A stretch of DNA of 45,888 nucleotides from Salinivirgaceae bacterium (GCA_030620515.1 JAUXEM010000007.1:1-45888); one strand, 5' to 3'. Positions 7,134 to 45,685 are shown, counted from the first letter of the stretch. Program-made: numbers and translations. The notes: generated from the sequence alone by a model not told the origin.

Positions 7134-7157
7134 TTGATAACTTTTAATTTTAAAAAA

Positions 7158-10100
7158 ATGAATAAAGTTAGATATATAGTTTTATTATTTATACTGTGTT
7201 TAGGGATAACTTCTCAGGCAAGGGATTATCGCAAAGGCTCAGAAAGGAAATCTGCAGAGAATGTTACAGCGGGATGTTTACCGGGAGCAACATCTTCAGA
7301 TTTAGACCTGAATAATGTTCGTGCATTGATCCATACAGGTGGTGATATGTGGTGGGATTTAGCAAATAATGCTAGATATGAGGTACCTAAAGGTTCTGGT
7401 AAACAAGCTCTTTTTGCTGGTGGTATTTGGATAGGTGGTGTTGATGTTAATGGCCAGCTTAGGTTAGCTGCTAAAACCTATCGTTCACAAGGTAACGATT
7501 ACTGGCCTGGTCCGCTAATTTCTTCAGGTGAGGGAATTGCTAGTGTAACACCCGATATTTGTAGTAGGTATGATAAACACCATAAAATTACAAAAGAAGA
7601 GGTTGAGGAATTTAGAAGTTGGTATAATGCCGATGCTATAACTAAAGATAAAGATTTTCCAGATTATTCTGTACCATTAGTAATTCAAGAATGGCCTGCA
7701 CACGGTCCAACAGATGCTGGTGCATACGATTATTATTTGGCTCCTTTTGCCGATGTTGATGGTGATGGAGTTTATAATTATCTTAATGGTGATTATCCTA
7801 ATTTTATTTTCGATAATAGTGGTGGTTGTAATTACGCTCCTGAGCGTAGAGCAGAAAATCTTAATTCTGCAAGTCAAAAACTATTTGGCGATATGACAAT
7901 GTGGTGGGTATATAACGATAAAGGTAATATTCATACTCAATCGCCTGGTGCTGCTGCTATTGGCATGGAGATTAGAGGGCAAGCCTTTGCGTTTTCTACC
8001 AACGATGAGCTTAATAACATGACCTTTTATAATTATCAAGTTATAAATAGATCAACCTTTACTTTAGCCGATGCTTATTTTGGTGTATGGACAGATGCCG
8101 ACCTTGGAGATGCTGATGATGATTTTGTGGGTTGCGATGTTGCCCAAGGACTTGGTTATCTTTATAATGGTAAACCAGTAGATGGTGATGGTAGTGGAAA
8201 AACCTACGGAGCATCACCTCCAGCAATAGGAATCGACTTTTTTGAAGGACCTTACCAAGATTTAAATTCAAAAGATGATTTATCATCTTGGGAAGAAGCA
8301 AATAGAGTTAATCTTGATTGTCAGAACGGATACGGTCTAAATTCTGATAAAGAGTGGGTGCAAATGGGCCAAGGTGATATATTTAATGGAAATATAAATG
8401 GTTTAAACTTTGGCGATGGAATAGTTGATAATGAACGTTGGGGAATGAGACGATTCATATATAATAACATAGATGGTAACCCTGGACAACAAGATCCAGA
8501 AACAGCAGTTGAATTTTACAATTACTTAAAAGGTATATGGAAAGATGGTGTTCCAATGACATATGGTAAAACTGGCTATAGAGATGGTACACTGAATGCA
8601 AATTTTATGTTCCCAAACAATACTGACCAATGTGGCTGGGGTACTGGTGGTGAAAAACAAGCTGATTGGAATGAAGAAACTGCAAATAATGGGGGTTCTA
8701 ATGACCCAAATGATAGAAGGTTTGTGCAGTCTGCAGGTCCATTTACACTAGAACCTGGTGCAGTTAACGATATAACTATCGGAGTAGTTTGGGCAAGAGC
8801 AAATAGTACGCCTTGGGCTTCTGTTCAAGAGGTTAGAAAAGCTGATATAAAAGCTCAACGTCTATTTGAAAATTGTTTTCAATTAATTGACGGGCCAGAT
8901 GCTCCTGATCTTCATATTGTTGAGCTTTCAAATAGTCTTATTTTTCATATATCCAATAAAACTAAATCAAATAATTATTTGGAAGGTTATAGTGCGAAAG
9001 ATCCTTTTATTGATGATGGAGTACCTGAAGAGGATAAATGGTTTGATTTTCAGGGATATCAAGTATATCAATTGAAGAACCAAAATGTTACAATGGCAGA
9101 AATTGATGATAATAATTTTGCTAGACAAATATTTCAGTGCGATGTGCAGGATGATATTATTAATTTAATTAATTTCAGCTGGGATCCTGACTTACAGGCT
9201 ATGATTCCAGTTGAGAAAGTTGCTGGGCTTAACAAGGGTGTTCTACACTCATTTGAGATTGAAGTTGATGCTTTTGCATCAGGTAACAATAAAACTTTAG
9301 TTAATTATAAAGATTACTATTATGTTGCTGTTGCTTACGCGCACAATAATTATGCTCCTTACGACCCAGTTAACGATGGCGCTTTAGGTAAACAAACTGC
9401 ACCTTATTTAGCAGGTCGTAGAAATGTGAAAACTTACTCTGCAACCCCTAACTCAATTGCATCGCATAATGGTGGAACGGAGCTAAATTCTGTGTATGGA
9501 ATGACTCCTAATTTATATTATAAAGAGGGACGCGGAACTGGCTATAACTATTTAAGATTAACTGAAAGTACAAAAAACAGTATTCTATCTAAAACAGATA
9601 TTCCGTTTAAGGCCGATTCTTTAATTTATGAGGTAAATGGTGGTCCAGTTGAAGTTAAAGTTATTGATCCTATAAACATAATTAGTGCCGATTATGAATT
9701 AAGGCTAAGTAAAGATTCTGTACACCTTAAGAGTGGTTACTATAACCCTTCTGATTCATTGAATGCTAATAACAAAACTGGCCAAATTCATGATACTAAG
9801 TGGGAATTAGCTTGGACAGTTGATGGTGTTGATAAAATGGTGGTTTCAAATAATTGGATTCGATACCAGAATGAAATGCTTATTCCCGAAATTGGGCTGT
9901 CCATTGCTTTATCGCAGGTTGAATTCCCAGGTAAAAAATATTCAAATGCTTTCGATGATTTAGAAAATATTAATAATGGTTTTGTAGGAGACAATTCATA
10001 CTATGAAGATGATGCAATTCATTGGGTAGATGGTATTCCAAATTTGGATGGAACTACTTATTTGAACTGGATTAGAGTAGGTAGTGTTGACTCTGAAGAT

Positions 10101-11351
10101 GACGATTCACAAAGTGATTATTTAGGTAGAGACCCTGATCAGATTTACGAAAGAGTTTTAGGTGGTACATGGGCTCCTTATTGCCTAACTTCAAAATTTG
10201 ATTTTGGTACGTCAAATATTGAATCTCAACCAGATCAAATTTCTTTTAAAAGCTTTCGCTTAGCAAGTATTGACTTTGTTTTAACAAAAGATGAAAGTTT
10301 ATGGACAAGATGTCCTGTTGTTGAAATGGCTCAAAATGATGCAGATAATACTAGTAAAAATAGTATTTCTGAAGGAGGAGCATTAAGATTCCAACTTAGA
10401 GCAGCTCCATCGCGCGATAAAGATGGAAATTACGATGCTAGTTTAACTGTTGATAATTTATCAGATCCAAATGCATCAAATTTCATTGGAGCAACTGGAA
10501 TGAGCTGGTTTCCTGGATATGCTATTGATGTTGAAACAGGTGAAAGACTAAATATCGTTTTTGGAGAAGACAGCTGGTTAGTTGGTGATAACGGAAATGA
10601 TATGCTTTGGAATCCTACATCAAATATTGGTAATATTTATTTTAATCCAAAATTTGGTGGAAAACACTTTATTTATGTATTTGGACATAACGAAGTAACT
10701 AATAATGTTATGCCAGCATATGACTTTGGTAAAACTATATATGATGCATTGCATCCAAGTTTAGATCCAATCACTCGAAGAAATAATGAGAAAAAGATTT
10801 GGAAACATCCGACTTGGACCTGTATGCCTTTAATTAAAGACGAATTTGCATATGTTGATTATGCTGACATGCCTGATAATAATATTACTATTGAGTTAAG
10901 AGCAGCTAATCCGTATTTCATTGGAACTGGTGGTTTTGCTTCTGATGCACCAACAAATTCTAATTATCCTACATTTGAATTTAACACAGACGCTTTAAGC
11001 GTGGTGCAACACTCAACTGACTTTGGCAAAAATGCCATGGATAATATTAACGTTGTGCCAAACCCTTATTATGGTTATTCTGAATACGAACAAACTCAAC
11101 TTGATAATATAGTAAAAATTACTAATTTACCTGAAAGATGTATTGTTAGTATCTATACACCAAAAGGAAACTTAGTGCGCAAGTTCGATAAAGATAATTC
11201 ACTATCATATATTGAATGGGATTTGAAAAACACTTATAGTGTAGGAATTGCAAGTGGTGTTTATATCATTCACATTAGTTCTCCAGAACTGGGTGAGAAA
11301 GTTGTTAAGTGGTTTGGCTCGTTAAGGCCTGTTGACTTAAATTCTTTCTAA
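7158..11351 (+). CDS. Large secreted protein with T9SS-type C-terminal domain
   Basis: Start at 7158 gives signal peptide MNKVRYIVLLFILCLGITSQA; DVDGDGVYNYLNGDYP Ca-binding-like loop; C-terminal INVVPNPYYGYSEYE...SIYTPKGNLVRKF...SGVYIIHI resembles T9SS type A sorting domains. Confidence 0.85.
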   Translation: MNKVRYIVLLFILCLGITSQARDYRKGSERKSAENVTAGCLPGATSSDLDLNNVRALIHTGGDMWWDLANNARYEVPKGSGKQALFAGGIWIGGVDVNGQLRLAAKTYRSQGNDYWPGPLISSGEGIASVTPDICSRYDKHHKITKEEVEEFRSWYNADAITKDKDFPDYSVPLVIQEWPAHGPTDAGAYDYYLAPFADVDGDGVYNYLNGDYPNFIFDNSGGCNYAPERRAENLNSASQKLFGDMTMWWVYNDKGNIHTQSPGAAAIGMEIRGQAFAFSTNDELNNMTFYNYQVINRSTFTLADAYFGVWTDADLGDADDDFVGCDVAQGLGYLYNGKPVDGDGSGKTYGASPPAIGIDFFEGPYQDLNSKDDLSSWEEANRVNLDCQNGYGLNSDKEWVQMGQGDIFNGNINGLNFGDGIVDNERWGMRRFIYNNIDGNPGQQDPETAVEFYNYLKGIWKDGVPMTYGKTGYRDGTLNANFMFPNNTDQCGWGTGGEKQADWNEETANNGGSNDPNDRRFVQSAGPFTLEPGAVNDITIGVVWARANSTPWASVQEVRKADIKAQRLFENCFQLIDGPDAPDLHIVELSNSLIFHISNKTKSNNYLEGYSAKDPFIDDGVPEEDKWFDFQGYQVYQLKNQNVTMAEIDDNNFARQIFQCDVQDDIINLINFSWDPDLQAMIPVEKVAGLNKGVLHSFEIEVDAFASGNNKTLVNYKDYYYVAVAYAHNNYAPYDPVNDGALGKQTAPYLAGRRNVKTYSATPNSIASHNGGTELNSVYGMTPNLYYKEGRGTGYNYLRLTESTKNSILSKTDIPFKADSLIYEVNGGPVEVKVIDPINIISADYELRLSKDSVHLKSGYYNPSDSLNANNKTGQIHDTKWELAWTVDGVDKMVVSNNWIRYQNEMLIPEIGLSIALSQVEFPGKKYSNAFDDLENINNGFVGDNSYYEDDAIHWVDGIPNLDGTTYLNWIRVGSVDSEDDDSQSDYLGRDPDQIYERVLGGTWAPYCLTSKFDFGTSNIESQPDQISFKSFRLASIDFVLTKDESLWTRCPVVEMAQNDADNTSKNSISEGGALRFQLRAAPSRDKDGNYDASLTVDNLSDPNASNFIGATGMSWFPGYAIDVETGERLNIVFGEDSWLVGDNGNDMLWNPTSNIGNIYFNPKFGGKHFIYVFGHNEVTNNVMPAYDFGKTIYDALHPSLDPITRRNNEKKIWKHPTWTCMPLIKDEFAYVDYADMPDNNITIELRAANPYFIGTGGFASDAPTNSNYPTFEFNTDALSVVQHSTDFGKNAMDNINVVPNPYYGYSEYEQTQLDNIVKITNLPERCIVSIYTPKGNLVRKFDKDNSLSYIEWDLKNTYSVGIASGVYIIHISSPELGEKVVKWFGSLRPVDLNSF

Positions 11352-33643: not shown

Positions 33644-34420
33644 CTAAAAAAAGTAATCGTTAAGTTTTTGAATATTTACCTGCGCACGAGTTATGTTTTT
33701 GTGCTTTAAAGTAAGCTTGTAGCCTTTAATAATACCATTTATTAAATTGTCGGTTGGGTCTTTCGGATTTCGTTTAATTGAAAAAGGTTTTTTTAGTTCT
33801 ATTGGAGCCTCTTCAGCATTGAAAATTGCAATGTATTTTCTAATTTTTCCGTCCTTAATTTCAAAAGGAGCTTGTGGTGCTTTAATTTTTCTTTTACCAT
33901 TACCCCAGTTTTCACCAGTATTAATTCTATTAATCTGCATCTCGGAAACACCAAAAGTAACACCAATATGTCTTAATGCAATACCCATTGAAATAAGATG
34001 CTTTATTTTTTTAACGTCTGATTTCATTAGCTTACTGTTACCGTATCGCTTATCTGTAATTTTAAGATTGGTATAATGCAAATTCTTTTTATTGCCATCT
34101 ATATATTCAATGGAATTTTTCTTTGAATTAAATACATGTGTAATTATGCCAAAAGTATATGCAACAAGCTGTGCTATAGGTATATTATGTAGTTTTCCTT
34201 CAGAACTAGTTAAGCTACAATAGCCCTGCCTCATTCTGCCATTACGTACAGGAAAATGCTGCTTGCCTTTATTTATATACAAAGCACCACTGTCTATTAT
34301 TGCTTTCTCCTTATTGTTAAGAGGTGTTACGCGGTATGTTTGTCCTGATTCGCTAATGTAATAGCGCTCAAAACCCAAAATTGACCTACAATCTTCACCG
34401 TGTATTATTTTTGAAACCAT
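33644..34420 (-). CDS. NUMOD4/HNH-like protein with C-terminal HTH, catalytic His apparently lost
   Basis: ILGFERYYISESGQTYRV, NIPIAQLVAYTFG, IEYIDGNKKNLHYTNLKI (cf. HIDGNK.NN...NL), SDVKKIKHLISMGIALRHIGVTFGVSEMQINRINTGENW. Confidence 0.65.
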   Translation of the reverse strand: MVSKIIHGEDCRSILGFERYYISESGQTYRVTPLNNKEKAIIDSGALYINKGKQHFPVRNGRMRQGYCSLTSSEGKLHNIPIAQLVAYTFGIITHVFNSKKNSIEYIDGNKKNLHYTNLKITDKRYGNSKLMKSDVKKIKHLISMGIALRHIGVTFGVSEMQINRINTGENWGNGKRKIKAPQAPFEIKDGKIRKYIAIFNAEEAPIELKKPFSIKRNPKDPTDNLINGIIKGYKLTLKHKNITRAQVNIQKLNDYFF

Positions 34421-36791: not shown

Positions 36792-37178
36792 GTGATGATT
36801 ACTTTAACAAAAGCAGAAGAACGGATAATGCAAATATTGTGGGATATAAAAAAAGGTTTTATTAAAGATATTCAAGATGAATTTCCTGAACCAAAACCAC
36901 TATATAATACTGTTTCTACAATTGTTAGAGTATTAGTTAAAAAAGAAATAGTTTCTTTTAACAAATACGGAAATACTTATCAATATTATCCTAATCTCTC
37001 AAAAGAGGAATATAGTGGTAAACAAATGAATCGTCTTGTAAACGATTATTTTAATAATTCGTTTAAAAAAGTGGTTAACTTTTTTTCAGAGAGTGAAAAT
37101 CTGAATGTTGACGAAGTAGATGAAGTAATGAAAATGCTAGAGAAGATTAAGGAACAGAAAAAGTATTCGAAAGATTAA
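36792..37178 (+). CDS. BlaI/MecI/CopY family transcriptional regulator
   Basis: LTKAEERIMQILWDIKKGFIKDIQDEFPEPKPLYNTVSTIVRVLVKKEIV...YYPNLSKEEY. Confidence 0.95.
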   Translation: MMITLTKAEERIMQILWDIKKGFIKDIQDEFPEPKPLYNTVSTIVRVLVKKEIVSFNKYGNTYQYYPNLSKEEYSGKQMNRLVNDYFNNSFKKVVNFFSESENLNVDEVDEVMKMLEKIKEQKKYSKD

Positions 37179-37188
37179 TTTATAAGCA

Positions 37189-39240
37189 ATGGCAAAATTT
37201 ATCTTATATCTTATTGAATCAGGATTGTGTTTGGCACTTATGTATTTGGTTTACTTTCTGTTTTTAAAGAAAGAAACCTACTTTAATTTTAACAGAATTT
37301 ACTTGCTTGGCATAATGATAATTGCCCTAGTAATACCATTATTGCATGTAACCATTGCTGTTTCGAGTTTTGAGAATATTGAAGAACCTTTTAATGATGT
37401 TGGCAAGCTACGGAGTTATTATAGCGACTTTGTTGCCATGTACAGCGAAGATGATTTTGAGGATAGGTACAAGAACTATGAGGCTATGGTTTTTGAAGAG
37501 GAGGGTTATTCAACAGCTGTATATTATAACTCCATAAATGAAACAATAGAAGACAGTGCAGTAAAGATGGAATCGTTGCAAGAGCCTTCGTTATTTCACA
37601 AAATAAACTTTGTAAAAGTATTTATTGCAATATATCTAATAGGAGTATTTATATTTTTTGTGCGTTTAATTATTTTGTTAATATGGTTAGCAAAAGCAGT
37701 TAAGCAAAATCCCGCGGAAAAGCATAAAAACTATAAACTCGTTCTCATGAAAAAGGAAGTTCCTCCTTTTTCGTTTTTCGGTTACATTTTTGTAACCAAG
37801 CAAGCTACGCAGCTCGATGAATATGAGCAAGTTCTAGCACATGAGCAAGTACATGTTGGGCAAATGCATTCGCTCGACCTTATTATAGCTCATGTCATAA
37901 CCGTTTTTATGTGGTTTAATCCCTTAGTTTGGCTTTTGCAAAAGGCAATTAAAACAACACACGAATACATTGCCGATAGCAAAGTGGTTAACCAAGGGTT
38001 TGAGTTATTTGATTATCAATCATTACTATTGAGTCAATTGGTCAGCATCCAATCAGTAGAATTGGTAAACAATTTTAATTTAATTTCCATTAAAAAACGT
38101 ATAGAGATGATGACAAAAAACAAATCGCGGTTTTCCGCCAAGCTAAAAGCACTTATTATAATACCTATGGTATTAATAGCCTTCTTTTTATTTGCTCATA
38201 TGACAGTGAAAAGTCCAGTGCTTAATTTTACAAACTTTAATACTACTAAAACGTCAAATCTTGACGGAATATGGGAGAATCAAGATTCCGAGGATTTTGG
38301 CATACTTATTAAGTTTCACGATAATGTATTATCGGTACTTGAAAGTGCCCAAGAAGTTATAGTAGCTGAATTGTTAATTACTATAAAAGACAAGGAAATA
38401 GTAATAAACAGCTTTCGTTCCAAAGAAGCGCTAAAATATGAATTAAATAATAAGCAACTAAAAATATGGTGGAACGATAGTAAGGCAAGTATATACAACA
38501 AAACTAGCTATGCAAATTCATTTGAAGCATTTACTCATAGCAAACATAAAGACATTATTTTACCTATAGCTTCGGAAACCAAAATATTGGAAAAATCGCA
38601 ATATGTTTACAGTATTTATGTTCACGAAAACAAATATTATGTGGCAGATGTAGAATGTACTATTGCAAACTTAGAAAGTACACTTAAACAACGGGTTGCA
38701 AAATTTAATAAGTTAGATAAACCATTTATTACTGCACGTTTAGTAGTAGATAAAAATACTACTATGAAACCCGTGTACAACTTGCACCAAGTTATGCGGA
38801 AACTTAGGTTATACAAGGTTGCCTATGCTACCTTCCCTAGTGAATATGCTTCAGCCTTACAATATCATGCTACTGGTATAGCTCAAATGTTGCCACCTAC
38901 TGTTGCGGATGGAGCTGAGGAGGTTGATGAAGATGAAGTTAAAGATATTCTTATTGTAATTGAACCAACCCGCGATGTTAATGCCCTTAGTATAAAATTT
39001 GAAAGTTTCGTGCAAAATCACCCAAAATATCTTGCAGCTTTCAATTGGAATAACAGCACTACTTACAATGAATATATTGCTATTCTCGATATGACTCGCA
39101 GGGTAATTTATAAATTACGAGATGCTTATTCAGTTCAAAAGTATAGTATGAAATACTCTGACTTGCCAAAAACAATGCAAAAAGAGGCACGTAAAAAATA
39201 CCCTCTCAGCATTTCAATGAATAATACTGACGAAGATTAA
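37189..39240 (+). CDS. M56 family (BlaR1-like) membrane metallopeptidase
   Basis: Multi-TM N-terminus; VLAHEQVHVGQMHSLDLIIAHVITVFMWFNPLVWLLQKAIKTTHEYIADSKV. Confidence 0.93.
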   Translation: MAKFILYLIESGLCLALMYLVYFLFLKKETYFNFNRIYLLGIMIIALVIPLLHVTIAVSSFENIEEPFNDVGKLRSYYSDFVAMYSEDDFEDRYKNYEAMVFEEEGYSTAVYYNSINETIEDSAVKMESLQEPSLFHKINFVKVFIAIYLIGVFIFFVRLIILLIWLAKAVKQNPAEKHKNYKLVLMKKEVPPFSFFGYIFVTKQATQLDEYEQVLAHEQVHVGQMHSLDLIIAHVITVFMWFNPLVWLLQKAIKTTHEYIADSKVVNQGFELFDYQSLLLSQLVSIQSVELVNNFNLISIKKRIEMMTKNKSRFSAKLKALIIIPMVLIAFFLFAHMTVKSPVLNFTNFNTTKTSNLDGIWENQDSEDFGILIKFHDNVLSVLESAQEVIVAELLITIKDKEIVINSFRSKEALKYELNNKQLKIWWNDSKASIYNKTSYANSFEAFTHSKHKDIILPIASETKILEKSQYVYSIYVHENKYYVADVECTIANLESTLKQRVAKFNKLDKPFITARLVVDKNTTMKPVYNLHQVMRKLRLYKVAYATFPSEYASALQYHATGIAQMLPPTVADGAEEVDEDEVKDILIVIEPTRDVNALSIKFESFVQNHPKYLAAFNWNNSTTYNEYIAILDMTRRVIYKLRDAYSVQKYSMKYSDLPKTMQKEARKKYPLSISMNNTDED

Positions 39241-39467: not shown

Positions 39468-40022
39468 ATGCATAGAATGGGTGAACGTATTAAAAAAAGA
39501 AGAGAAATATTAAATATTCAAGCCGGAGATTTAGCTGTAAGAATAGGTGTAACTCCAAGCTTAATATCTCAAATTGAACGCGCTAAGGCTTTCCCCTCTA
39601 TACTAACACTTAAAAAACTGGCCGATGAATTACAAACCAAAGTTGGCGAACTAATTGGCGAACATGGTACATTTATTGAAAATCCTATATTAACAGTTGA
39701 TCAGCATCGTTTTGCAAAGGAAAACAAAACAGGAGCAAAAACGTATTTACTATCGCACCACGATCCTTTAAAGCAAATGGATCCTTTTTTAATTCATTTT
39801 GAGAAAAAGGCCGATTCACGTGAAATTATGACTCCCAATAATCCAGGACAAGAATTTTGCTATGTAACAGAAGGCAAAATAAAAGTAGAACTAGGAACAA
39901 AACAATATGAATTAAATGTAGGAGATAGCTTCTATTTTATATCTAACCAAAATCATTTGTTTTCGAATATAGACGAAGGCAGTTCAAAAATGCTTTGGAT
40001 AGTAAACCAATCAGGCAATTAG
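39468..40022 (+). CDS. XRE family regulator with C-terminal cupin domain
   Basis: MGERIKKRREILNIQAGDLAVRIGVTPSLISQIERAKAFPSILTLKKLADEL; cupin GQEFCYVTEGKIKVELGTKQYELNVGDSFYF. Confidence 0.94.
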   Translation: MHRMGERIKKRREILNIQAGDLAVRIGVTPSLISQIERAKAFPSILTLKKLADELQTKVGELIGEHGTFIENPILTVDQHRFAKENKTGAKTYLLSHHDPLKQMDPFLIHFEKKADSREIMTPNNPGQEFCYVTEGKIKVELGTKQYELNVGDSFYFISNQNHLFSNIDEGSSKMLWIVNQSGN

Positions 40023-40062
40023 TTTAAAAACACACTATATCAAACTACTAAAAACAATAAAG

Positions 40063-41640
40063 ATGTCAGCAAATCAGGTAACCACCGTAAGAATCAATTC
40101 AGCTAATGTTAAAGGAATGTTGAATCGATATTCTTATGCCACTGATGTGGAAAAGAATATTGAAAACGAAAACCTATTAACTCCAGGTTTATTAACTCGT
40201 TTACATAATGCATTTCCAGGTAGCTCTGCTATAATGGAAAAGGAAGCGTTTATGTTTAACGACAAGCATCACTATTCAGGGTTGAAAGGCTTTCGCGAGA
40301 TACATGAGATATTGCTAGGCCATGGAATTGACATGGGTTTTATTGAGGAGCGCGAACTTTTTATAAAAGTATATCGCTTTATGGCAACAAAGCATGTTTT
40401 AAATACCATTAACTGGAAAAGCTTTGCCGACGATTCTTTATTTCAGCTAGTTTTTCCACAACCTGGAATGATAAAGCCTGAAACAACTGAAGCTTATATA
40501 AAAGCAACTACGGATGCTGAAAGAGAAGAGCTTGTGAATCGTCATATGGACCAAACAAATCCACACGATGGAAATCAAAAACTAAACAAGCCTTTTTACG
40601 AGGAAGAAGATGGTACTATTGCAGTTGTTGAGGGGAGTCAGCATAAATATCCTCAGTGTAAACTGATTTTTGACCAAACTACTCAAAGCTGTTTCGCATT
40701 TTGTAGTTATTGTTTCCGCCATGCTCAGGTTCGTGGCGACGAAGATATGTTTATTCAAAAAGAAGTGGCACAAGTACATCATTACATTCGTCAGCATAAA
40801 GAAATTACCGATGTTTTAATTACCGGTGGTGATGCTGGCTACATGCCCTTTGAGCGTTTGGAAAAATATGCGATGCCTTTTATTACTGACCCAGAAATGG
40901 CTCATATAAAAACGCTTCGTTTAGGAACCCGTTCTTTATCTTTTCATCCTGAATTAATTTTAACCGACGATTACAAAAAGATTCTAGATTTATTCAAAAC
41001 CTTAATTGACAATGGAATTCAGGTTGCTTGGATGGCTCATTTTTCTACACCTAGGGAAGTGTTAAATATAAGTACAATAGCTGCTATTCGTCGTTTACGT
41101 GCAACTGGCGTAACTGTAAAAAGTCAAAGTCCGGTAATGAATCATATTAGCTTATTTACTCACAAAAATGGTGAAGTTGACGTTGACCGCTCTGCTCAAA
41201 ACTGGATTGATTTAGGTCATGTATTAGGAATGTTAACCGTTGGTTTCCACAGCATGTACTGTGCTCGTCCAACAGGTGAACACCATTACTTTACAGTTCC
41301 TTTAAAAGATATAAACGAGGTGTTTAATAAAATTTACCGTTCACTTCCTTCCATAAGCCGTCCATCAAGGTATATTACTATGACATCGTCGGCAGGAAAA
41401 ACATCACTGTTAGGTGTTGCTGAGGTAAATGGTGAAAAAGTTTTTGCTTTAAAATTCAACGAAAGCCGTAATATGGAATGGATGGATAAAGTCTTTTTGG
41501 CTAAGTACGATGAAAAAGAAAATACTATCTCAAGCCTGAAACCATTAGATACTGATAAGCATTTCTTCGAAGATGAATTGGTTGAGATTGAAAATAAATT
41601 AGAAGAAACATTCTTAAGAAAAATGAAACAAAATAAATAA
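40063..41640 (+). CDS. KamA-family radical SAM protein (candidate amino-acid 2,3-aminomutase of unknown specificity)
   Basis: CFAFCSYCFRH (C210-x3-C214-x2-C217), DVLITGGDAGYMPFERLE, HFSTPREV; SSAGK (Lys446) at the PGGGGK position of lysine 2,3-aminomutase. Confidence 0.88.
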   Translation: MSANQVTTVRINSANVKGMLNRYSYATDVEKNIENENLLTPGLLTRLHNAFPGSSAIMEKEAFMFNDKHHYSGLKGFREIHEILLGHGIDMGFIEERELFIKVYRFMATKHVLNTINWKSFADDSLFQLVFPQPGMIKPETTEAYIKATTDAEREELVNRHMDQTNPHDGNQKLNKPFYEEEDGTIAVVEGSQHKYPQCKLIFDQTTQSCFAFCSYCFRHAQVRGDEDMFIQKEVAQVHHYIRQHKEITDVLITGGDAGYMPFERLEKYAMPFITDPEMAHIKTLRLGTRSLSFHPELILTDDYKKILDLFKTLIDNGIQVAWMAHFSTPREVLNISTIAAIRRLRATGVTVKSQSPVMNHISLFTHKNGEVDVDRSAQNWIDLGHVLGMLTVGFHSMYCARPTGEHHYFTVPLKDINEVFNKIYRSLPSISRPSRYITMTSSAGKTSLLGVAEVNGEKVFALKFNESRNMEWMDKVFLAKYDEKENTISSLKPLDTDKHFFEDELVEIENKLEETFLRKMKQNK

Positions 41641-41663
41641 TTGCCATTTTATAAAATGTAATT

Positions 41664-42377
41664 ATGATTAATAAGATTGTTCATTCAACTTCCGAAGCTT
41701 TTGTTGATATATTTGATGGTGCAACCATCATGATTAGTGGCTTTGGTGAGGCCGGTAGCCCAATTGAACTAATTCATAGTTTGATTGATACCGGAGCAAA
41801 AAATTTAACTGTGGTAAGTAACAATACAGGTAGTGGTAATGTTGGCTTAGCTGCGTTAATAGAGAATCGTCAGGTGCGAAAAATGATTTGTTCGTTCCCA
41901 CGTACTGCAAATTCAACGGTTTTTCCTGAATTGTATCGTAACAACGAAATTGAATTGGAATTGGTTCCGCAAGGAACTTTAGCCGAACGAATTCGTGCTG
42001 GCGGAGCTGGCATACCTGCATTTTTTACACCATCATCAGTTAATACTCCTTTGGCCGATGGAAAAGAAGAAAGAGAGTTTGATGGAAAACTATATGTAAT
42101 GGAACATGCCATTAAGGCGGATTTTGCCTTGGTAAAATGCCAATCGGCCGACCGATACGGAAACCTTATATATAATAAAACGGCCCGCAATTTTGGTCCA
42201 ATTATGTGTACTGCTGCTAATGTTACCATTGTGCAAGCAAAAAACATTGTAGAAGCTGGCTCTATTGATCCAGAAACAGTAATTACACCAGGTATATTTG
42301 TTAATAGAGTTGTACAAGTTGCATCACCTGCCGATGAGTCGAAATTGGTAGCAGAAGGAAGGAGTTATCCATGGTAA
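41664..42377 (+). CDS. CoA-transferase subunit A (PcaI/3-oxoadipate type by eye)
   Basis: ATIMISGFGEAGSPIELIHSLIDTGAKNLTVVSNNTGSGNVGLAALIENRQVRKMICSFPRTANSTVFPELYRNNEIELELVPQGTLAERIRAGGAGIPAFFTP. Confidence 0.93.
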   Translation: MINKIVHSTSEAFVDIFDGATIMISGFGEAGSPIELIHSLIDTGAKNLTVVSNNTGSGNVGLAALIENRQVRKMICSFPRTANSTVFPELYRNNEIELELVPQGTLAERIRAGGAGIPAFFTPSSVNTPLADGKEEREFDGKLYVMEHAIKADFALVKCQSADRYGNLIYNKTARNFGPIMCTAANVTIVQAKNIVEAGSIDPETVITPGIFVNRVVQVASPADESKLVAEGRSYPW

Positions 42378-43024
42378 CAGAAAAACAAATAGGTTGGAAT
42401 AGAGGTGAAATGGCGCAGAAAGTAGCCAACGATATACCTGATGGTTCCTATGTAAACTTAGGTATTGGTATTCCCGAATTGGTTGCCGATAGAGTACCTG
42501 AAGGCATTGAGGTAGTTTACCATACCGAAAATGGTTTATTGGGAATGGGTACTGTTCCGGCTGCCGGAAGCGAAGATCCTGAATTAATTAATGCTGGTAA
42601 AAAGTGTGTTACAGCTATTCCTGGAGCTAGCTATTTTCATCATGCCGATAGTTTTACTATGATTCGTGGAGGACATCTGGATATTTCGGTCTTGGGTGCT
42701 TTGCAAATTTCTGAAAAAGGAGATTTAGCGAACTGGTCAACAGGAAAACCGGGTGCGATACCAGCAGTTGGTGGGGCTATGGATTTAGTGGCAGGGGTAA
42801 AAAATGTTTGGGTAATTACCGAGCATAATACCAAAGACGGAAAATTTAAATTGGTTAAAGAATGCAGTTTCCCATTAACGGGTAAAGGTGTTGTTAATAC
42901 AATTTACACGAATCTGGCTATTATCGACGTAAAAAAAACTGGAATGTTTGTTCGAGAAATGGCTCCTGGTGTAAGCTTTGAGTTTTTACAAGAAAAAACA
43001 GAAATAATGTTGAAGCAGATTTAA
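42371..43024 (+). CDS. CoA-transferase subunit B (PcaJ/3-oxoadipate type by eye)
   Basis: EMAQKVANDIPDGSYVNLGIGIPELVADRVPEGIEVVYHTENGLLGMG (catalytic ENG), FHHADSFTMIRGGHLDISVLGALQISEKGDLANW, IPAVGGAMDLVAG. Confidence 0.94.
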   Translation: MVTEKQIGWNRGEMAQKVANDIPDGSYVNLGIGIPELVADRVPEGIEVVYHTENGLLGMGTVPAAGSEDPELINAGKKCVTAIPGASYFHHADSFTMIRGGHLDISVLGALQISEKGDLANWSTGKPGAIPAVGGAMDLVAGVKNVWVITEHNTKDGKFKLVKECSFPLTGKGVVNTIYTNLAIIDVKKTGMFVREMAPGVSFEFLQEKTEIMLKQI

Positions 43025-43046
43025 CTTTTCTTAATAATTCTTTAGT

Positions 43047-44378
43047 ATGACAACAGAAAAACTAAATAAATCGGAAGAAATATATAATAAGGCTTTAGAT
43101 GTTATGCCTGGTGGCGTAAGTCGTAATACTGTCTATCATGCTCCGCATCCACATTATGCTGCTGGAGCAAAAGGTGCTTATGTTACCGACATTGATGGTA
43201 TTGCACGAATTGATTTTGCCAACAATATGGCAGCTCTAATTCATGGACATGCGAATCCGGCAATTGTTGACGCTGTAACGGAACAATTACAAAAAGGTAC
43301 AGCCTATACTTTAGCAACTGAGGCTGAGGTGCGCTATGCAAAACTATTAACCGATAGAGCTCCGGGTTTTGACAAAATTCGTTTTGTAAATTCTGGTACC
43401 GAAGCGGTAATGGCTATGATTAAAGCTTCAAGGGCTTTTACTGGTCGTCCAAAAATTGCCAAGGCAGAAGGAGCATATCATGGACCTTATGATTTTGCCG
43501 AAGTGAGCCAAACTGCTAATCCAAGTAACTGGGGCGATATAGATAATCCGAATAGTGTGCCACATGCTTATGGAACGCCAAAAGGCGTTTTAAACGATGT
43601 TGTAATTTTTCCGTATAATGATATTCAACGTACATTGGCTATTTTAGATAAAAATGCAGATGAAATTGCCTGTGTTATTATTGATCCAGTACCGCACCGT
43701 GTTGGTTTGTTGCGTGGAACATCTGAATTTGTTGAGGCTTTGTATAATTGGACTCGAAAAAATGGAGCCTTACTTGTATTTGACGAAGTAGTAACTTTCC
43801 GCACTAATTATAGTGGAGCACAGCACGACTACAAAGTTAAACCTGATCTTACTTCGTTGGGTAAAATAATTGGTGGAGGCTTTCCTGTTGGTGCATTTAC
43901 CGGAAGAGCCGATGTAATGCAAGTACTTGATCCTAGGCAGGCAAAAATGCCCTTGCCCCACTCAGGTACATTTTCGGCAAATCCTATTACCATGACAGCA
44001 GGAAGAGTAGCCATGGAGTTATTTGATGAAACAGCTGTTTTAAAACTGAATGCACTTACTAAAGTAGCGATTAAACAAATTGAAGAAGCTATAAAATTAG
44101 CCGATGTTCCAATTTCGTTAACAGGTGCTGGTTCAATGTTTCGTATTCATCTGAAAAAAACACCACCAACCACCTATCGTGAAGCGTATCAAACAAAAGA
44201 GGAAGCTGCTATACTCACCACTTTGCTCGACTACCTTTTTTATGAAGAGCAAATTATGATGATTAATACCTGTGCTTGTATGTTCTCGACTGCTCTTATG
44301 CAAAAAGAAGTAGATAGACTTTCACAAGGCTTATACAATGGTTTTAAACTGATAAAGCCTGAACTGATAAAACTATAA
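43047..44378 (+). CDS. Class III aminotransferase, glutamate-1-semialdehyde aminomutase-like
   Basis: MPGGVSRNTVYHAPHPHYAAGAKGAYVTDIDG, IRFVNSGTEAVMAMIKASRAFTGRPKIAKAEGAYHG, LLVFDEVVTFR, LGKIIGGGFPVGAFTGRADVM. Confidence 0.93.
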   Translation: MTTEKLNKSEEIYNKALDVMPGGVSRNTVYHAPHPHYAAGAKGAYVTDIDGIARIDFANNMAALIHGHANPAIVDAVTEQLQKGTAYTLATEAEVRYAKLLTDRAPGFDKIRFVNSGTEAVMAMIKASRAFTGRPKIAKAEGAYHGPYDFAEVSQTANPSNWGDIDNPNSVPHAYGTPKGVLNDVVIFPYNDIQRTLAILDKNADEIACVIIDPVPHRVGLLRGTSEFVEALYNWTRKNGALLVFDEVVTFRTNYSGAQHDYKVKPDLTSLGKIIGGGFPVGAFTGRADVMQVLDPRQAKMPLPHSGTFSANPITMTAGRVAMELFDETAVLKLNALTKVAIKQIEEAIKLADVPISLTGAGSMFRIHLKKTPPTTYREAYQTKEEAAILTTLLDYLFYEEQIMMINTCACMFSTALMQKEVDRLSQGLYNGFKLIKPELIKL

Positions 44379-44482
44379 ATCCTTATGGCTGCCTTACTGG
44401 CAAATAAGCAAAGTAAGCAATTATTTTAACTGAAACTTAACCAAAAGCATCAGCTTAATACTGACAAACTAACTTTAACAAC

Positions 44483-45685
44483 ATGAAAGAAGCATATATT
44501 TGCGATGCAATTCGCACCCCAATAGGAAGATACGGAGGGTCATTAGCCAAAGTTAGAGCCGACGATTTAGCCGCTATTCCATTAAAAGCTTTAAAAGAAC
44601 GCAATCCGAATGTTGATTGGAATGCAATAGATGATGTAATTTTAGGTTGTGCGAATCAGGCTGGTGAAGATAATCGTAATGTTGCTCGAATGGCATTGCT
44701 TTTGGCCGATTATCCAGAAACTATTCCTGGTGTTACGGTAAATCGTTTGTGCGGTTCAGGTATGGATGCAGTTGGAACAGCTGCAAGAGCTATTATGGCC
44801 GGAGAAGCTGATATACTAATTGCTGGAGGTGTTGAAAGTATGTCTCGAGCTCCTTTTGTAACAGGAAAAGCATCTTCACCATTCGATAGAAATATTAAAA
44901 CCTACGATACAACAATTGGTTGGAGGTTTATAAATAAAGCATTGGATAAAATGTACGGTACAGAATCGATGATAATGACCGCACAAAATATTGCCGACGA
45001 TTTTAAAATTAGCCGCAAAGATCAAGACAAATTTGCCATAGAGAGTCAAGAGAAGGCAAAAGCGGCACAAGAAAAAGGTCTTTTAAACGCTGAGATTATT
45101 TCTGTTGTTATGCCTCAGCGTAAGGGAGAGGATATAGTCTTTTCTAAGGATGAGCATTTGCGATTATCATCTTTGGAAAAGCTAGCTTCCCTTAAATCTA
45201 TTTCGAACCAGAATGGTTCTATTACTGCTGGAAATGCATCGGGAGTGAACGATGGCGCCGCAGCAGTACTTATTGCATCTGCCGAAGCAGTAAAAAAATA
45301 CAACTTAAAACCCCTAGCTAAAATTTTAGGTATGAAAGCCGCTGGAGTATTGCCTAGAACAATGGGAATGGGGCCTGTTCCGGCAACAAAAAAACTACTT
45401 TCGCATATAGGAATGACTTTAGATGATATGGATATTATTGAGCTAAATGAGGCATTTGCAGCGCAAGGTTTAGGTTGCATACGCGAATTGGGTTTAGCTG
45501 ATAATGATGAAAGAATTAACCGCTGGGGCGGTGCTATTGCTCTTGGGCATCCACTAGGAATGAGTGGAGCCCGACTACTAACTACTGCTACTTATCAGTT
45601 ACAACAATCGGATGCCAAAACAGCCTTGTGTACCATGTGTATAGGTGTTGGACAAGGTATTGCTATGGTAATTGAAAAAGTGTAG
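44483..45685 (+). CDS. Thiolase (acetyl-CoA acyltransferase), PcaF/PaaJ (3-oxoadipyl-CoA thiolase)-like
   Basis: AIRTPIGRYGGSLAKVRADDLAAIPLKAL, GCANQAGEDNRNVARMALLLA, VNRLCGSGMDAVGTAARAIMAGEADILIAGGVESMSRAPFV, GGAIALGHPLGMSGARLL. Confidence 0.94.
   Translation: MKEAYICDAIRTPIGRYGGSLAKVRADDLAAIPLKALKERNPNVDWNAIDDVILGCANQAGEDNRNVARMALLLADYPETIPGVTVNRLCGSGMDAVGTAARAIMAGEADILIAGGVESMSRAPFVTGKASSPFDRNIKTYDTTIGWRFINKALDKMYGTESMIMTAQNIADDFKISRKDQDKFAIESQEKAKAAQEKGLLNAEIISVVMPQRKGEDIVFSKDEHLRLSSLEKLASLKSISNQNGSITAGNASGVNDGAAAVLIASAEAVKKYNLKPLAKILGMKAAGVLPRTMGMGPVPATKKLLSHIGMTLDDMDIIELNEAFAAQGLGCIRELGLADNDERINRWGGAIALGHPLGMSGARLLTTATYQLQQSDAKTALCTMCIGVGQGIAMVIEKV

Follow-up and report, generated by a model that had tools for sequence, protein, structure and literature searches.

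A conserved operon of KamA-like radical SAM, Pca-type CoA-transferase, aminotransferase and thiolase genes, a probable lower end of bacterial lysine catabolism via 2-aminoadipate

The 45,888 nt stretch of Salinivirgaceae bacterium DNA analysed here (GCA_030620515.1 JAUXEM010000007.1:1-45888; "the window") carries at positions 39468-45685 a cluster of six open reading frames (ORFs), all full length and all on the + strand. The first (39468-40022) encodes a 184 amino acid (AA) XRE-family regulator with a C-terminal cupin domain (PF01381, HTH_3, and PF07883, Cupin_2). It is followed by genes for a 525 AA KamA-like radical S-adenosylmethionine (SAM)/pyridoxal phosphate (PLP) protein (40063-41640), our proposed L-2-aminoadipate 2,3-aminomutase; subunits A (41664-42377; TIGR02429) and B (42371-43024; TIGR02428) of a 3-oxoacid, and we propose 3-oxoadipate, coenzyme A (CoA)-transferase; a 443 AA class III aminotransferase (43047-44378; PF00202), proposed to act on 3-aminoadipate and 2-oxoglutarate (or on 3-aminoadipyl-CoA); and a 400 AA thiolase, an acetyl-CoA acyltransferase of the 3-oxoadipyl-CoA type (44483-45685; TIGR02430 and NF006551). 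The successive intergenic gaps are 40, 23, -7, 22 and 104 nt, the negative value being a 7 nt overlap of the two CoA-transferase genes, and the window ends about 200 nt past the thiolase gene. A preliminary description of this locus had named the same coordinates, gene order, strand and short gaps, as well as the same protein families; the ORF listing and the profile matches bear it out on all of these, and its impression by eye that the CoA-transferase and thiolase resemble PcaI, PcaJ and PcaF agrees with the profile scores and identities given below. Scans for promoters and terminators gave no match above the chance level set by shuffled sequence.

The last five genes are found together in many other bacteria. 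We sampled 80 loci from named genomes with radical SAM homologues 43–76% identical to the window protein, of which 66 are assessable in that they include at least 4.3 kb downstream of the radical SAM gene. The order radical SAM, CoA-transferase A, CoA-transferase B, aminotransferase, thiolase, all on one strand, is present in 49 of these 66, so the clustering is not due to chance. The sample covers Bacteroidales, other Bacteroidota, Ignavibacteria, Shewanella, Photobacterium, Colwellia, Pseudoalteromonas, Rhodospirillaceae, Acidobacteriota/Thermoanaerobaculia, Sumerlaeota, Krumholzibacteria and others, and the five-gene order is kept in Bacteroidota, Ignavibacteria, Gamma- and Alphaproteobacteria and other phyla. 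Exceptions are mostly of the Colwellia type, with the radical SAM gene alone or the rest 7–10 kb off and inverted; at several other loci only one gene is absent or inverted. The XRE-cupin gene is the sole lineage-restricted member: it is found close to the operon at some Bacteroidota loci, whereas in Proteobacteria a LysR gene often takes its place. Its product is probably a regulator of the operon. On either side of the block lie mainly housekeeping genes with no relation to it, or local regulators, so the five genes form a self-contained unit, and no constant transporter was found in the wider operon neighbourhoods.

The radical SAM protein matches the KamA-like profile TIGR00238 (E 2e-22, below the curated cut-off) and does not reach the cut-offs for lysine 2,3-aminomutase (LAM; TIGR03820, 68.8 bits, cut-off 525.4), glutamate 2,3-aminomutase (TIGR04368, 61.9 bits, cut-off 650), arginine 2,3-aminomutase (TIGR04468, 61.4 bits, cut-off 600) or EpmB. 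LAM (2a5h) is its only match in a sequence search of solved structures, and is also the best and sole strong Foldseek match of its AlphaFold model (mean predicted local distance difference test score 85.8), with E 1.7e-13, a template-modelling score of 0.63 by target length and a high whole-chain root mean square deviation. The LAM reference sequence used for residue comparisons is identical to 2a5h chain A; in LAM, Arg134 binds the substrate carboxylate, Lys337 binds PLP, and Asp293 and Asp330 bind the epsilon-ammonium group. In 28 members of the window protein's family the Fe-S motif CxxxCxxC (C210, C214 and C217) is invariant, as are R219 (parallel to LAM R134) and K446 (LAM K337). An invariant R402 lies opposite LAM D293 in the hidden Markov model profile alignment and in a larger alignment, and the position of LAM D330 is occupied by T or S439. 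Since Asp293 is replaced by Arg and Asp330 by Ser or Thr while Arg134 and Lys337 are kept, an acidic substrate is favoured. The protein as a whole suits a PLP-dependent aminomutase whose amino acid substrate has an acidic side chain; this pattern alone does not distinguish chain length. In a maximum-likelihood tree of 46 rows, drawn without glutamate aminomutase sequences, the 28 family members form their own clade (support 100/99), which is apart from LAM and EpmB and lies next to a clade of proteins roughly 30–38% identical.

Two other groups of KamA-like genes were seen among the loci. A second clade (L086:8328-9668, L087:8613-9920, L088:7626-8963, L089:5471-6856, L090:8010-9311 and L147:3905-5284), present in many Bacteroidales, has proteins of 433–461 AA that are 31–38% identical to the window protein, with the PLP lysine retained and an Arg in the place of Asp293; in two loci its genes adjoin what by eye are mreBCD/rodA-like genes, and in Mycetohabitans a nonribosomal peptide synthetase gene. 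Deinococcus wulumuqiensis pDrdA (L154:1-7101) carries a LAM-type KamA gene with genes for a CoA transferase, alpha/beta hydrolases, an acetylornithine-type aminotransferase and an aldehyde dehydrogenase, possibly an amino acid degradation cluster.

CoA-transferase subunit A scores 348.8 bits on TIGR02429 (cut-off 128.5) and shares 59–60% identity with PcaI of the pcaF-linked Klebsiella and Rhizobium operons, 51% with ScoA and 35% with AtoD; like PcaI it has a two-residue insertion (SFPR) that ScoA and AtoD lack. Subunit B (290.3 bits on TIGR02428, cut-off 243.6) is 60% identical to Klebsiella PcaJ and 42% to AtoA. The thiolase scores 665.3 bits on the PcaF profile TIGR02430 (cut-off 597) and is also above the cut-off of NF006551; it shares 62% identity with PcaF and PaaJ and 47% with AtoB, and its nearest solved chains include the beta-ketoadipyl-CoA thiolase 6pca. 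As subunit A is PcaI-like and the thiolase is PcaF-like and exceeds the PcaF cut-off, these enzymes point to a C6 diacid, 3-oxoadipate. An intradiol ring-cleavage dioxygenase (PF00775) was found neither in this genome, in keeping with the preliminary description, which had seen no ring-cleavage genes, nor in 31 of the 39 cluster genomes tested; an aromatic source via the intradiol branch is thus unlikely there (the search did not extend to other ring-cleavage routes). The aminotransferase matches PF00202 and falls below the HemL cut-off. Its nearest solved chains are 6k8h, ForI and then GSAM, with beta-phenylalanine and beta-transaminases further down, relatives that agree with beta-amino acid chemistry without proving the substrate. 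The idea that ForI makes a 3-aminoadipate derivative proved wrong, as the papers propose a pyrazole beta-keto dicarboxylate and the ForI substrate is unconfirmed. The closest plasmid-borne CoA-transferase, 68% identical, is on Tistrella mobilis plasmid pTM2 (L130:1-6391), near genes for a P6C (piperideine-6-carboxylate)-dehydrogenase-like protein (54%), an HGLS-domain protein (PF07063) and a GcvA-type regulator; this neighbourhood is lysine-type and has no radical SAM gene.

In two lineages, genes for the conversion of lysine to 2-aminoadipate adjoin the cluster. In one relative (G173) the operon runs on, on the same strand, into genes for a P6C/2-aminoadipate-semialdehyde dehydrogenase (NF050084, 802 bits, cut-off 730; PDB matches ALDH7A1/AASADH) and a saccharopine dehydrogenase (PDB matches AASS/saccharopine reductase, E 7e-64), and in a betaproteobacterial Ramlibacter metagenome-assembled genome (L061) a P6C dehydrogenase gene (760 bits, above the cut-off) directly follows the aminotransferase gene. 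Elsewhere in the cluster genomes, paired genes for lysine-ketoglutarate reductase and saccharopine dehydrogenase are present in many Bacteroidales, and blocks in which the P6C dehydrogenase gene precedes or follows such a pair occur in one Melioribacteraceae and a Krumholzibacteria genome. In three Acidobacteriota genomes and one Sumerlaeota genome a lysine 6-aminotransferase gene (TIGR03251, above cut-off) adjoins an aldehyde dehydrogenase gene, which is of the P6C dehydrogenase type in the Acidobacteriota. A LYS9-type saccharopine dehydrogenase is encoded by all 17 of the Bacteroidota/Ignavibacteria cluster genomes examined, and among 198 genomes of the window's order, Bacteroidales, by 13 of the 14 that have the cluster versus 91 of the 184 others (Fisher p=0.0012, phylogeny ignored). 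This p value takes no account of phylogeny, and a correlation is also seen for a paralogous radical SAM gene (28/38, p=0.003), so we give the physical linkage more weight than the count. Every non-proteobacterial cluster genome examined has at least part of the lysine-to-2-aminoadipate route, and the genome under study encodes two of the three saccharopine-route enzymes, an LKR-like protein (C238; matches the LOR domain of AASS, E 2e-31) and a P6C dehydrogenase (C245; 767 bits). These comparisons establish the protein families, the conservation of the operon, the pattern of residues, and the linkage and co-occurrence in genomes.

Two other ideas about lysine genes were set aside. Lysine 6-aminotransferase as a feeder in Bacteroidales was dropped in favour of the saccharopine route (0 of the 198 genomes were over the cut-off), and HglS/DUF1338 as a mutually exclusive alternative end was rejected since it co-occurs with the cluster (8/14 cluster and 42/184 other genomes); the HglS/DUF1338 forms in the Bacteroidales sample are short and weak, and we draw no conclusion from them. 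At one Bacteroidales locus (L003:16282-21130) the genes downstream of the cluster are an LplA-like gene (by eye), a DUF1338/HglS-like gene and a gene for a 970 AA FAD-linked oxidase that by eye resembles D-2-hydroxyglutarate dehydrogenase, possibly a 2-oxoadipate end of lysine catabolism.

2-Aminoadipate chemistry is the best-supported reading of the operon, with independent genomic evidence in its favour; we infer each enzymatic activity and each substrate in the pathway that follows. It is probable that the operon forms the lower end of lysine catabolism, running from 2-aminoadipate through 3-aminoadipate and 3-oxoadipate to succinyl-CoA and acetyl-CoA. Upstream enzymes encoded elsewhere would make L-2-aminoadipate, either by the saccharopine pathway and 2-aminoadipate-semialdehyde/P6C dehydrogenase or by lysine 6-aminotransferase and a dehydrogenase. 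The radical SAM/PLP enzyme would move the amino group from C2 to C3, giving 3-aminoadipate, and the class III aminotransferase would transfer it to 2-oxoglutarate to leave 3-oxoadipate; this would be activated with succinyl-CoA by the PcaIJ-like CoA-transferase, and the PcaF-like thiolase would convert 3-oxoadipyl-CoA to succinyl-CoA and acetyl-CoA, so that the CoA donor is formed anew. The order may also be the reverse, with CoA transfer ahead of transamination. The operon thus probably joins two known pathways through a new aminomutase specificity, and we lean, a little less firmly, to its being an undescribed multi-phylum lysine route in which a new L-2-aminoadipate 2,3-aminomutase leads into the beta-ketoadipate pathway, free of O2 and bypassing 2-oxoadipate and glutaryl-CoA. 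A search of open-licence full-text papers returned nothing on 3-aminoadipate as a metabolic intermediate or on the five-gene set. This end to lysine catabolism had been put forward in the preliminary description, and the three comparisons it called for came out in its favour computationally: the five genes co-occur in conserved order, the KamA-like protein groups with no characterised enzyme, and lysine-to-2-aminoadipate genes lie next to the cluster in two lineages unrelated to each other and are co-resident in other genomes.

Several observations weigh against this pathway. The radical SAM protein is only about 20% identical to LAM, one alignment places Ala401, not Arg402, opposite Asp293, and the Arg at this position is common to the paralogous clade, so that it marks a group wider than the operon. 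P6C dehydrogenase was detected in only 6 of the 14 Bacteroidales cluster genomes (49 of the 184 others, p=0.16). The draft assembly under study (319 contigs, 96.5% complete) has no LYS9-type saccharopine dehydrogenase, only a weaker PF16653 match that is probably of the carboxynorspermidine type. The Shewanella, Photobacterium and Colwellia cluster genomes have no match to lysine 6-aminotransferase, LYS9-type saccharopine dehydrogenase or P6C dehydrogenase, and the Colwellia radical SAM genes are separate from the other four.

The alternative that survives best is the same pathway with CoA transfer first, in which 3-aminoadipate would become 3-aminoadipyl-CoA and then 3-oxoadipyl-CoA through a Kat-like aminotransferase acting on the thioester. 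The CoA-transferase genes do lie before the aminotransferase gene, free beta-keto acids readily decarboxylate, and there is a characterised precedent in Kat, the 3-aminobutyryl-CoA aminotransferase of lysine fermenters, a class III enzyme resembling HemL whose only substrates are CoA thioesters (PMC3149608). However, PcaIJ-type transferases are known for free 3-oxoadipate, and none of the aminotransferase's closest relatives of solved structure is described as acting on CoA esters; we regard this order of steps as possible but rather unlikely. We doubt more strongly that the four downstream genes serve for 3-oxoadipate, or an acid like it, of other origin while the radical SAM protein does something unrelated (e.g., RNA, protein or secondary-metabolite modification). 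The separate Colwellia radical SAM genes would fit such a role, as would the KamA-like EpmB, which is a protein modifier, but the strict co-location in most phyla, the retained PLP Lys and carboxylate Arg, and the lack of an intradiol dioxygenase in most cluster genomes argue otherwise. Still less probable is a glutamate route, through 3-aminoglutarate and 3-oxoglutarate to acetyl-CoA and malonyl-CoA. The Arg/Ser pocket suits an acidic substrate, glutamate 2,3-aminomutase is an existing family, and the route needs no feeder genes and would account for Shewanella and Colwellia; nonetheless the glutamate aminomutase profile match is far below its cut-off, the linkage to lysine genes would be unexplained, and the Pca-type CoA-transferase and thiolase tell against this route, one of the two alternatives in the preliminary description. 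The other, lysine via beta-lysine, 3-oxo-6-aminohexanoate and a CoA ester to acetyl-CoA and 4-aminobutyryl-CoA, overlaps in enzyme classes with the Bacillus abl/yod operon but is the least likely of all, as the radical SAM protein lies outside the LAM clade, far below the LAM cut-off, with Arg and Ser/Thr for the two epsilon-ammonium-binding Asp residues, the operon has no acetyltransferase, its thiolase and CoA-transferase are 3-oxoadipate-type, and the linkage to P6C and saccharopine dehydrogenases would be unexplained.

The proposed 2-aminoadipate pathway shares parts with several known systems. The window protein has the radical SAM/PLP fold, CxxxCxxC motif and carboxylate Arg and PLP Lys positions of LAM (KamA/AblA), but is longer (525 vs. 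416 AA), with a long N-terminal region, and belongs to a separate clade. Its proposed substrate is an acidic amino acid, like that of glutamate 2,3-aminomutase, in which the equivalents of Asp293 and Asp330 are Lys and Asn; unlike members of that family it reaches only 62 of the 650 bits set for TIGR04368. The CoA-transferase and thiolase are 55–62% identical to those of pca-type operons and would catalyze the same reactions as the lower half of the beta-ketoadipate pathway (PcaIJ, PcaF), fed by an aminomutase and a transaminase rather than by aromatic ring cleavage. Bacillus ablA-ablB-yodQRST likewise combines an aminomutase, a class III aminotransferase and a two-subunit CoA-transferase in one operon (class III aminotransferase, CoA-transferase A/B, peptidase-family gene, AblB, AblA), but has a true LAM, an acetyltransferase and a peptidase-family gene, and no thiolase. 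With saccharopine/2-aminoadipate lysine catabolism (AASS, ALDH7A1) the pathway would have the upper half, lysine to 2-aminoadipate, in common; whereas that catabolism ends through 2-oxoadipate to glutaryl-CoA or through HglS, here 2-aminoadipate would be isomerised at C2/C3 and not deaminated to 2-oxoadipate.

Elsewhere in the window, directly upstream of the operon region (36792-39240), lies a pair of genes for a BlaI-type repressor and a BlaR1-like M56 peptidase, the C-terminal half of the latter having a weak ExbD-like match. Two further ORFs, of 1405 AA (7134-11351) and 258 AA (33644-34420), have no Pfam match at E 0.001.

If the proposed pathway is correct, it would add a specificity to the amino acid 2,3-aminomutases and provide an O2-independent end to lysine catabolism that directly yields succinyl-CoA and acetyl-CoA. 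It would also account for the presence of PcaIJF-like genes in Bacteroidales that have no intradiol ring-cleavage genes, and would make it possible to test, in cultured hosts such as Shewanella or Marinifilum, which substrate a conserved KamA-like family uses.

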